A DNA stretch of 64,000 nucleotides from Treponema ruminis (GTDB lineage: Bacteria > Spirochaetota > Spirochaetia > Treponematales > Treponemataceae), in contig CP031518.1 of NCBI GenBank assembly GCA_017161305.1, positions 496,001 through 560,000 on the forward strand. Direction: 5' to 3'. The translations under genes and the position numbers were made by a program. Below are positions 57,071 through 59,436 of the stretch, one piece after another. Within the stretch, counting starts at the first letter, position 1; the number at the start of each line of letters is the position of its first letter. The notes under the pieces were generated by a model. It did no database searches. It had not been told where the DNA came from and saw only the letters and a list, made by a program, of their open reading frames with translations.

Positions 57071-57101
57071 TGAAAAAAAATCAAAAAAAAATTATTACCC
57101 A

Positions 57102-57154
57102 TTGACATAGTAGGAAATACGCTTTATAGTGTAATTACCTACTAAAGAGGTAGG
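57102..57154 (+). promoter_or_regulatory. metY promoter with inverted-repeat operator
   Basis: TTGACA (57102-57107), 17 bp, TATAGT (57125-57130). TAGTAGG (57108-57114) in the spacer is the inverse of CCTACTA (57138-57144) at the start site, and CCTAC (57138-57142) also pairs with GTAGG (57150-57154). This looks like an operator. Rrf2-type regulators of sulfur genes can use CCTAC-like sites, but the regulator is not identified. Confidence 0.6.
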
Positions 57155-57184
57155 AATAGATTAACAACAGGAGGAAAAAAAATT

Positions 57185-57265
57185 ATGACGGAATTTTTTG
57201 AGAAATTAGTCAGAGAAAATTTTAGATTTGGGAGAATGATTTCCTGTTGTATGATGGCAAGTTAA
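57185..57265 (+). CDS. Leader peptide with Cys-Cys-Met-Met, upstream of metY
   Basis: A 26-codon frame, MTEFFEKLVRE then NFRFGRMISCCMMAS. It has a strong AGGAGG (57169-57174) ten bases upstream, lies about 48 bases after the expected start of the metY transcript, and stops at 57265, 168 bp before metY. Two Cys then two Met codons (57245-57256) next to the stop are what a leader peptide sensing charged Cys-tRNA or Met-tRNA would show. Hairpins follow at 57319-57339 and 57391-57410. Whether it controls transcription or translation cannot be told from sequence. Confidence 0.6.
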   Translation: MTEFFEKLVRENFRFGRMISCCMMAS

Positions 57266-57433
57266 AAAAGTTTTAAGTCCAATCGGAGAGGGTACTTAAT
57301 ATTTAGCAGGTGTTGAAGTCGAGTTTGCAAAGCAAACTCGCAGGGGCGTTTGAGCCCGCAGAGAGGGTAGGGCGCAACGAAGTGCGACCGTGGGGGGAGA
57401 CTTCCCCCTTATTTATAAAACAGGAGAAAAAAT
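57266..57433 (+). promoter_or_regulatory. metY leader region after the leader peptide
   Basis: 168 bp with a perfect hairpin CGAGTTTGC-AAA-GCAAACTCG (about 57319-57339), then a copy of the dispersed element whose final stem GGGGGA/TCCCCC is followed by TTATTTAT, a weak terminator shape. AGGAG precedes metY. The arrangement would permit attenuation, but competing anti-terminator pairing was not found by eye. Confidence 0.45.
57339..57411 (+). repeat. Dispersed hairpin element, copy before metY
   Basis: GAGCCCGCAGA, then GGGTAGGGCGCAACGAAG, TGCGACCG and the end hairpin GGGGGAGACTTCCCCC. 57365-57390 is identical to 20981-21006. Same orientation as metY. Confidence 0.75.
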
Positions 57434-58723
57434 ATGACAGATACTAAACTTCATTTCGAGACTTTACAGCTTCACGTTGGACAGGAACAGGCAGATCCTA
57501 CTACGGATTCACGCGCAGTACCTATTTATCAGACAACTTCTTATGTTTTCCATAATTCAAAGCATGCGGCTGACCGATTTGGACTTGCTGATGCAGGAAA
57601 TATTTACGGACGTCTGACAAACTCTACTCAGGACGTTTTGGAGAAGCGTGTTGCGGCATTGGAGGGAGGCGTTGCGGCTCTTGCAGTGGCTTCTGGTGCG
57701 GCTGCAATCACTTACACAATCGAGGCTCTGGCTCAGGCCGGAGACCATATCGTCGCTCAGAAAACAATCTACGGCGGTACATACAATCTTCTTGCACACA
57801 CATTGAAAGGATTCGGTGTTGAGACAACTTTCGTTGATGCCCACAATCTTGCAGAACTTGAGGGAGCAATCAAGCCGAACACAAAGGCAGTTTACCTTGA
57901 GACTTTGGGAAATCCAAACTCGGACATTCCTGACATCGATAAAATCGCTGAAATTGCACACAAACACGGACTTCCGCTTGTAATCGACAACACATTCGGA
58001 ACTCCTTACCTTATCCGGCCAATCGAGCACGGAGCTGACATCGTAGTTCACTCTGCTACAAAATTCCTGGGCGGACACGGAACAACTTTGGGCGGCGTAA
58101 TCGTTGATTCTGGAAAATTTGACTGGAAAAAATCTGGCAAATACGCTCCAATCGCAGAAGCAAACCCAAGCTACCACGGAATTTCATTCGCTGAGGCTGT
58201 AGGACCGGCTGCCTTCGTAACATATATCCGGGCAATCCTGCTCCGTGACCAGGGCGCTTCAATCAGTCCTTTCAACGCATTCCTTCTCTTGCAGGGCGTT
58301 GAGACACTTTCACTCCGACTCGACCGACATGTTGAAAATACAAAGAAAGTAGTTGAATATTTGAGCAAGCATCCTCAGGTTCAGAAAGTAAATCATCCTT
58401 CACTTGCTGACCATCCGGATCACGCCCTTTACGAGAAATATTTCCCGAACGGCGGTGCTTCAATCTTTACATTCGAAATTAAGGGTGGAAAAGATGCGGC
58501 ATGGAAATTCATCGACAATCTGAAGATTTTCAGCCTTCTTGCAAACGTCGCTGACGTTAAGTCGCTTGTAATTCATCCGGCTACAACGACACATTCCCAG
58601 CTTACTGATTCGGAACTCGCTGACCAGGGAATCACTCAGAGCACAATCCGCCTTTCAATCGGCACTGAGCATGTAGACGACATCATTGCAGATTTGGAAA
58701 ACGGTTTTAAGGCCGCAAAATAA
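57434..58723 (+). CDS. metY: O-acetylhomoserine sulfhydrylase (PLP-dependent)
   Basis: 429 residues, the usual length for MetY. It makes homocysteine (or cysteine) from the O-acetyl ester and sulfide in the cytoplasm. The PLP lysine is in HSATKFLGGHG (Lys210); TTSYVFHNSKHAADRFG and NIYGRLTNST are typical of the Cys/Met-metabolism PLP family, and the long insert around 215-245 separates MetY from MetB/MetC. Preceded by a Cys/Met leader peptide, which supports the assignment. O-acetylserine activity cannot be ruled out. Confidence 0.92.
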   Translation: MTDTKLHFETLQLHVGQEQADPTTDSRAVPIYQTTSYVFHNSKHAADRFGLADAGNIYGRLTNSTQDVLEKRVAALEGGVAALAVASGAAAITYTIEALAQAGDHIVAQKTIYGGTYNLLAHTLKGFGVETTFVDAHNLAELEGAIKPNTKAVYLETLGNPNSDIPDIDKIAEIAHKHGLPLVIDNTFGTPYLIRPIEHGADIVVHSATKFLGGHGTTLGGVIVDSGKFDWKKSGKYAPIAEANPSYHGISFAEAVGPAAFVTYIRAILLRDQGASISPFNAFLLLQGVETLSLRLDRHVENTKKVVEYLSKHPQVQKVNHPSLADHPDHALYEKYFPNGGASIFTFEIKGGKDAAWKFIDNLKIFSLLANVADVKSLVIHPATTTHSQLTDSELADQGITQSTIRLSIGTEHVDDIIADLENGFKAAK

Positions 58724-59436
58724 AATAAAAAGCCGGGCTTGTCAAAAGAGCCCGGCAAATGACTTCTAGAAATCACTATACATCTGCCCCCCCCCCTAGT
58801 ACCTAGTTTTAATAATAGTTCATTCCTTGCGCAGACTTTAGCCTTGTTGTAAATGTGGGCGATATGGTTCTCGATTGTGCGGACTGAGAGGCCTAACATT
58901 TTTGCTGAATCCTGATTTGAAAGACCGTTCTGAATGTTTTCAAGGACAACCTTTTCTCTTCTTGTTAAACGCTTGAGTATTTCCTTGATTTCCTGAGCCT
59001 GTTCCTGCAGGTAGGGCTGAATGTAAGTCTGGCCCGCCATGAGGGAATCGATTGCCTCCAGAAGAATGTGCTTTTCGGCGGTTTTTGAGACAAAGCCCTG
59101 GGCACCGTACTTTTCGGAAAGGGCTTTGAGCACGAATGAACCCCTGTCCAAATCCGTGAAGACCAGACTTTTGATGTTTAAGCCGGAATCCTTGATGGCG
59201 GAAAGAATTTTCATGCCCTTTTCGTTCCTTGCCTCGCAGGCCTTGCGGAAGTTGATTCCGATGATTGCGACCGCCTGTTCATCCTCCTCGAAACTGGCAA
59301 AATTGATGATTTCAAGGGCCTCTTCGACCGTACTTGCCTTGCCGCGAATTGTTAAATCTTTTTTTGATGAAATCCATGAGCAGATCCCTTCCATGACGAT
59401 TGGCTCTGACTCAAAAACGTAAATTATTTTCTCCAT
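58636..59436 (-). CDS. LuxR-family regulator with degenerate receiver domain; poly-G tract shifts its C-terminus
   Basis: As read, 266 residues. Residues 1-135 resemble a response-regulator receiver, but the phospho-acceptor Asp position is Gly60 (VAIIGINF), while the Lys of GFVSK is kept. Residues 157-211 are a LuxR/GerE helix-turn-helix (LTRREKVVLENIQNG, SNQDSAKMLGLSVRTIENHI). Just after it a run of ten G (58787-58796 as C on the plus strand) leads into about 49 residues that pass through the gene's own terminator and into antisense of metY. With 9 or 11 G the frame would stop at 58776 or 58766, before the terminator. It is divergent from the large lipoprotein gene and may control it. Confidence 0.85.
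   Translation of the reverse strand: MEKIIYVFESEPIVMEGICSWISSKKDLTIRGKASTVEEALEIINFASFEEDEQAVAIIGINFRKACEARNEKGMKILSAIKDSGLNIKSLVFTDLDRGSFVLKALSEKYGAQGFVSKTAEKHILLEAIDSLMAGQTYIQPYLQEQAQEIKEILKRLTRREKVVLENIQNGLSNQDSAKMLGLSVRTIENHIAHIYNKAKVCARNELLLKLGTRGGGRCIVISRSHLPGSFDKPGFLFYFAALKPFSKSAMMSSTCSVPIERRIVL
58732..58756 (-). terminator. Intrinsic terminator, mainly for the LuxR-type gene
   Basis: GCCGGGCT (58732-58739) and AGCCCGGC (58749-58756), 9-base loop. On the reverse strand it is followed by TTTTTATTTTATTTT, a good terminator for the regulator gene; on the plus strand the T-run is missing. Confidence 0.85.
58787..58796. repeat. Homopolymer of ten C (poly-G on the regulator strand)
   Basis: The longest G/C homopolymer noticed here. 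It lies in the coding sequence of the LuxR-type gene straight after the DNA-binding domain. Poly-G runs of this size are used for phase variation in Treponema pallidum. Confidence 0.9.

Follow-up and report, generated by a model that had tools for sequence, protein, structure and literature searches.

Runs of Cys codons are reportedly found in the leader peptides of mycobacterial cys operons, as Canestrari is said to have described in 2020. In the available excerpts of PMC1262725 and PMC13236596, leader peptides with Cys codons are located upstream of mycobacterial cys operons, and the second source describes them as translation attenuation. Compared with these excerpts, the locus described here is similar in that a short ORF with Cys codons towards its 3′ end precedes sulfur genes, with no obvious terminator; it differs in phylum and in carrying the core F..LVRxNFRxG[RV]M, a distinction made without sequence comparison. 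Tandem Cys codons in a leader ORF are shared with uORFC-8-2 of Rhodobacterales, which, in the accessible part of PMC8632094, has a terminator stem with a U run and has cysS as its target. The LEU element of actinobacterial leuA, as presented in the passages of PMC1262725, concerns leucine, involves a pseudoknot and belongs to another phylum. The TnaC arrest peptide (excerpts of PMC8429421) is comparable in being a leader peptide whose nascent chain matters, which is putative here, and differs in that it serves tryptophanase rather than sulfur genes and in that the present family is known from sequence alone. Leader peptides are also reported for hisS paralogs in bacilli in the available part of PMC2965389.

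The window, the whole 64,000-nucleotide stretch of the Treponema ruminis genome that was analysed, contains a candidate for this type of control upstream of metY. The preliminary description had claimed a 26-codon frame with an AGGAGG site, ending in SCCMMAS and preceded by a consensus promoter, and all of these elements are present within the following arrangement.

57098 to 57114, + strand: palindrome CCCATTGACATAGTAGG over the −35 element, one base off the family form CCTATTGACATAGTAGG; a probable operator, from sequence
57102 to 57130, + strand: promoter TTGACA-17-TATAGT, matching the consensus at 11 of 12 positions
57138 to 57154, + strand: second palindrome, CCTACTAAAGAGGTAGG, a probable operator, from a palindrome search
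57169 to 57174, + strand: Shine-Dalgarno sequence of the leader, AGGAGG
57185 to 57265, + strand: leader peptide ORF MTEFFEKLVRENFRFGRMISCCMMAS, 26 codons with an ATG start, ending SCCMMAS-stop; from the reading frame, the family profile and selection
57194 to 57238, + strand: conserved core, codons 4–18 (FFEKLVRENFRFGRM), a probable nascent-chain element, from alignment and selection
57240 to 57248, + strand: anti-Shine-Dalgarno segment TTTCCTGTT within the Ile-Ser-Cys-Cys codons, from predicted pairing
57245 to 57250, + strand: tandem Cys codons 21 and 22, the proposed stall site, from sequence and a ribosome-position scan
57345 to 57412, + strand: dispersed repeat bearing stable hairpins, terminator-like at 57392–57408 and outside the conserved device, from a genome search
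57419 to 57427, + strand: Shine-Dalgarno region of metY, AACAGGAGA, predicted partner of 57240–57248
57434 to 58723, + strand: metY, a PLP enzyme of Cys/Met metabolism (PF01053), from a Pfam match

The metY product matches PF01053 in Pfam with an E-value of 1.5e-138, and the gene name follows the preliminary description. The frame appears to be the regulatory leader-peptide gene of a conserved sulfur-control family and, in the window, most likely a translational attenuator, a reading to which we give a probability of about 0.6. Separately, a run of ten C residues on the + strand (58787–58796) lies within the end of a minus-strand ORF (58636–59436) that resembles a response regulator by eye, and slippage in this run could alter the C-terminus of its product.

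The leader belongs to a family that can be found independently of metY. A profile of 19 leader peptides (A1), searched over 145 Treponemataceae genomes without reference to metY, identified 61 places in 47 genomes at E ≤ 3.8e-7, with the next match at 0.014; two places were left out, one with a match at E 0.0165 and no start (L175) and one at a contig end with no downstream gene (L163). Several genomes carry two to four copies ahead of different operons. Once two duplicates had been removed for codon and residue counts, 59 distinct leaders remained, and the core positions F, R, N, R, G, and M are invariant in all of them, with the first invariant Arg encoded by all six of its codons and the conserved Leu by five. 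Across 34 loci, pairwise pN/pS is 0.132/0.741 in the core, compared with 0.113/0.731 in the first 120 codons of metY, and identity drops to about 0.28–0.30 on either flank of the ORF. On these figures, the leader ORF is under selection at the protein level. Conservation peaks in the core, F..LVRENFRxG[RV]M, after which the codons are Cys-rich but variable. The preliminary description had considered the Cys/Met run unlikely to arise by chance, and a chance ORF is ruled out by the gap in profile E-values together with the pN/pS values. The conserved ORF, its selection as a protein and its gene context are thus the parts of the attenuator reading that can be shown from sequence.

The distribution of the leader is patchy. 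An initial set drawn from public genomes comprised 80 metY loci; 36 of them have an upstream ORF bearing a related motif, at least one of these hits being spurious (L018), and none was seen in 44. Among the 72 metY orthologs found in the 145 genomes (E ≤ 1e-150), the leader is present in 38 and was not detected in 34, one of which (G040) starts at a contig edge, so that leader presence cannot be judged there. Three of the leaderless orthologs have 95–96% identity to the metY of the window, and the leader looks like a module that has been gained and lost. Absence of the frame from relatives had been named beforehand as an outcome that would speak against it; the frame is conserved in relatives, though with the 34 exceptions just given.

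The genes behind the leader are largely related to sulfur metabolism, and the arrangement is that of amino-acid leader peptides, with a short conserved ORF and a ribosome-binding site upstream of pathway genes. In 60 of the 61 loci a first downstream gene could be listed: metY-type (40), NlpA lipoprotein (5), LANC-like (4), URO-D (3), PALP (2), GST-like (2), ABC-ATPase with a NIL domain (2), AMP-binding (1), and unassigned (1). These Pfam names were taken from cluster representatives, and start codons were picked by a simple Shine-Dalgarno rule that may be wrong at some loci. The PALP family is that of cysK, and the methionine importer is among the NlpA and NIL-domain ABC proteins; one of the NIL-domain ABC-ATPase genes (L165) is located 1,082 nt from its leader. 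At four loci (L127, L140, L153, and L162) a LANC-like gene and then a PALP (cysK-type) gene follow the leader. The LANC-like gene is an unexpected partner for sulfur control.

The variable tail points to cysteine. Cys is present in the tails of 53 of the 59 distinct treponeme leaders, 39 of which have CC, and accounts for 151 of 508 tail residues, so that, as in amino-acid leader peptides, a run of codons for the pathway amino acid is found both in the window (Cys-Cys) and in most relatives. Met occurs in only 3 of the 59 tails, and the Met-Met of the window is therefore local and not conserved. The earlier proposal that Cys-Cys-Met-Met acts as a set of sensor codons is thus supported by conservation for Cys and not for Met; alignment of relatives, which had been suggested as a check, shows the frame core and, in most tails, Cys kept while the flanks drift, and the Met codons are not kept. 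The conserved ORF, the Cys in its tail and the downstream sulfur genes together give good support to the broader idea of a leader through which the ribosome would respond to sulfur amino acids. Six of the 59 treponeme leaders have no Cys at all, and 12 of 25 clostridial leaders end GRM-stop with no Cys codon, so the Cys codons cannot be the sole signal.

These clostridial relatives were identified with a second profile (A2), whose 25 matches at E ≤ 0.001 are spread over 23 of the 291 Clostridia genomes searched. All 25 are leader-like on reading; 23 are ahead of metY and two (L186 and L191) ahead of a lipoprotein that is MetQ-like by eye. In Spirochaetota the same profile, which is less sensitive than A1 on treponemes, matches 11 of 247 genomes at E ≤ 0.001, ten of them from Treponemataceae and one (G477) from another family. 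In the class of G152, two of 120 genomes match (E 4.2e-4 and 9.6e-4) and show no leader motif when read; in the class of G150, none of 151 genomes matches, in a search run without a positive control. Among 21 clostridial leaders with a long gap, a terminator-like hairpin is found in 17, and for 15 of the 17 its 5′ arm pairs with the leader above the 5% control. Searching by motif turned up 21 loci at which a segment such as TCCCGGGC lies in the leader, 12 nt past the start of the CGA codon, and in 17 of them at least 7 of 8 pairs form between this segment and the terminator arm, a score that is somewhat favoured because the motif fixes part of the segment and the partner is the best 8 nt near the arm. 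A G-C pair has become A-U in five of these loci, and a C-G pair has become A-U in one. In these long forms, as in trp- or his-type attenuators, a terminator and a competing antiterminator overlapping the leader are found together. A Lachnospiraceae variant (profile A3, which at E ≤ 0.01 matches 13 places spread over 10 of 291 genomes, nine of these places being read as leaders by script), MCCRM..SRA, groups with the long forms, its Ser-Arg-Ala codons being the antiterminator strand. Twenty clostridial short forms follow the same trend as the treponemes, with predicted Shine-Dalgarno access of 0.31 free, 0.49 with a stalled ribosome and 0.32 with a ribosome at early codons.

For the treponeme leaders, pairing with the next Shine-Dalgarno sequence and its release are predicted from folding. 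In the window, TTTCCTGTT is complementary to AACAGGAGA over nine pairs, one of them G-U, and this helix is included in the minimum-energy fold (z −2.87 for the whole stretch). Predicted access to the metY Shine-Dalgarno sequence is 0.03 in the free RNA, rises to 0.83 when a ribosome occupies the Cys codons and is 0.01 when it occupies early codons. When the ribosome is moved along the window's leader, access is 0.64–0.92 for P-site codons 15–25, 0.01 at codon 26 and 0.15 at the stop; an anomalous early maximum, 0.83 at codon 9, counts against the model. Filters for gap, length, identity and a visible Shine-Dalgarno sequence left 59 loci for pairing, 58 for permutation, 56 for access and 54 for the position scan, with 43 of 54 used for the tail-swap and thinned permutation tests. 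Mean access over 56 loci is 0.28 free, 0.42 stalled and 0.26 early, with a gain above 0.2 in 18 loci, compared with one under the early mask. Pairing between tail and Shine-Dalgarno sequence reaches p ≤ 0.05 singly in 16 of 59 loci. Over 58 loci, matched pairs score higher than permuted pairs (p 0.0002, compared with p 0.72 for the N-terminal control), and their advantage persists in a thinned set of 43 loci (0 of 5000 permutations).

Pairing of a leader segment with the next Shine-Dalgarno sequence, as expected of a translational attenuator, is thus predicted for the window and partly for the family. None of 12 swapped tails reached the access gain of the window, and across the family the gain with own tails was 0.134 compared with 0.070 for swapped ones (p 0.13, 43 loci), which is not significant. 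Because of these two results, the release mechanism is well predicted for the window and for only part of the family. The best reading is translational attenuation by Cys supply together with a putative conserved nascent-chain element. The leader probably lets the ribosome gauge the cysteine supply of the cell and uncovers the start site of the next gene at cysteine shortage. With plentiful cysteine, ribosomes would complete the leader and depart, the vacated Ile-Ser-Cys-Cys codons would pair with the metY Shine-Dalgarno sequence and metY would be off. With charged Cys-tRNA scarce, a ribosome would pause on the Cys codons and cover the anti-Shine-Dalgarno segment, and metY would be translated. 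In this scheme the stalling, Cys as its signal, the sense of the control, what the core does and a second layer of the Rrf2/CymR type are inferred.

Neither the anti-Shine-Dalgarno segment nor the antiterminator accounts for the conservation of F..LVRENFRxG[RV]M at the amino-acid level. RNA structure is disfavoured as its cause, given the free variation of synonymous codons. An exception is the codon immediately preceding M18, which is CGA in all 22 clostridial sequences and, where treponemes have Val, GTC in each of the 29 cases. At one Faecalibacterium locus (L047), the leader upstream of metY has three CGA-ATG pairs, two of which are followed by TGT or TGA. The core ends where the ribosome would sit on the anti-Shine-Dalgarno segment, a position that hints at slowing or arrest of the ribosome at M18 by the nascent chain. 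With the ribosome at M18 or the Cys codons, the core would be in the upper exit tunnel and probably slows the ribosome there. A wider version of this idea, which we hold only tentatively, is that the chain F..LVRxNFRxG[RV]M is itself an exit-tunnel sensor of a sulfur metabolite or of Cys/Met-tRNA supply in a cross-phylum family with host-specific outputs: treponemes and the short forms of clostridia would use release of the Shine-Dalgarno sequence, and the clostridial long forms antitermination. If true, it would to our knowledge have no bacterial precedent among arrest peptides for sulfur amino acids, the parallel being plant CGS1.

It is conceivable, if rather doubtful, that a sulfur metabolite (Cys, Met, SAM or a relative) triggers arrest at M18 through the core, as particular residues of TnaC serve in the response to tryptophan, with the Cys codons merely tuning the effect. 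As in arrest peptides, amino-acid conservation extends to residues close to the putative stall site; the core makes up the 15 residues leading up to the proposed stall and is kept as protein in two phyla with synonymous change free. The clostridial leaders that stop directly after GRM fit this explanation, as does the predicted access of 0.79 in the window for a stall at M18. Against it, the enrichment of Cys in the tail suits codon sensing, and an end product that switches on its own biosynthesis gene would invert the expected logic, and the arrest ligand would then have to be a starvation signal.

Explanations other than Cys-dependent release of the Shine-Dalgarno sequence place the decision in the spacer or in the peptide product. 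Rho-dependent polarity, in which translation of the leader or a stall decides whether Rho terminates in the spacer, is consistent with spacers that vary widely in length and share no common structure, and excerpts of PMC1262725 propose a Rho mechanism for mycobacterial Cys leaders; it is nevertheless improbable here, leaving the complementarity between tail and Shine-Dalgarno sequence unexplained. The preliminary description had compared the stable hairpins with trp, his, and leu leaders, and the clostridial long forms do carry terminators and antiterminators. In treponemes the comparison is not supported, and transcription attenuation through the intrinsic terminator-like hairpin at 57392–57408 is highly improbable. 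The hairpins overlap a dispersed repeat that occurs at 15 places in this genome, including the copy in the window, and that is absent from the sister locus in G124, where the spacer is 47 nt compared with 168 nt. Across 60 treponeme regions, the mean best terminator-like energy of −4.9 kcal/mol shows no excess over shuffles (−4.5 kcal/mol), and none of 19 terminator candidates has an arm complementary to the leader, so that the pairing of intrinsic terminator and leader-overlapping antiterminator typical of trp or his leaders was not found. Similar hairpin-rich stretches can be seen by eye in other treponeme spacers, for example L054. For treponemes the evidence points to Shine-Dalgarno sequestration in preference to terminator logic. 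A small protein acting in trans, which conservation at the protein level might suggest, is scarcely credible given two to four copies per genome ahead of different operons, as fits cis control, a variable C-terminus, and no match among the leaders tried in NCBIfam (six) or Pfam (five).

Control of the metY promoter may add to Shine-Dalgarno release. A CCTA..TAGG palindrome is located within 260 nt upstream in 55 of 61 leader loci, compared with 0.16% in shuffles, and by eye several leaderless relatives retain it. The palindromes are probable operators of the Rrf2/CymR type. A CymR-like repressor is likely, because this genome has two Rrf2 matches above the family cut-off; such a repressor would form a second layer at the promoter. 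Elsewhere in the same genome, outside the window, an Rrf2-family gene (G000:C1:1992807-1993184) adjoins matches to the metY protein at 1991567-1992682, and the likely regulator therefore adjoins a second gene for a Cys/Met-type enzyme.

Known RNA regulators were searched for with Rfam covariance models. At gathering score the window contains only two tRNAs, both elsewhere, and no match upstream of metY. Two sets of 20 loci, one with a leader of the clostridial type and one lacking it, yielded no SAM riboswitch or T-box, and the matches seen were a purine riboswitch on the minus strand (L050), a tmRNA (L039), and a c-di-GMP-I riboswitch (L070). The two groups of 20 are alike in this respect, and the scan thus does not separate a swap of leader for riboswitch in leaderless loci from the alternatives.

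The leader family is not described in the literature as covered by title, opening of the abstract or passage, a scope outside which most subscription papers and bioRxiv preprints fall. Judged by conservation, the leader is real; leaders with Cys codons are already known, the core family appears to be new, and the nascent-chain question is testable. If the proposed function is true, treponemes and many clostridia would have a ribosome-based sulfur sensor ahead of genes of the metY, cysK and methionine-import types, at sites that gave no SAM riboswitch or T-box match in the Rfam scans. With one core, two phyla, and two RNA outputs, the family would provide a clean test case for the way in which nascent-chain effects are combined with codon supply in attenuation.
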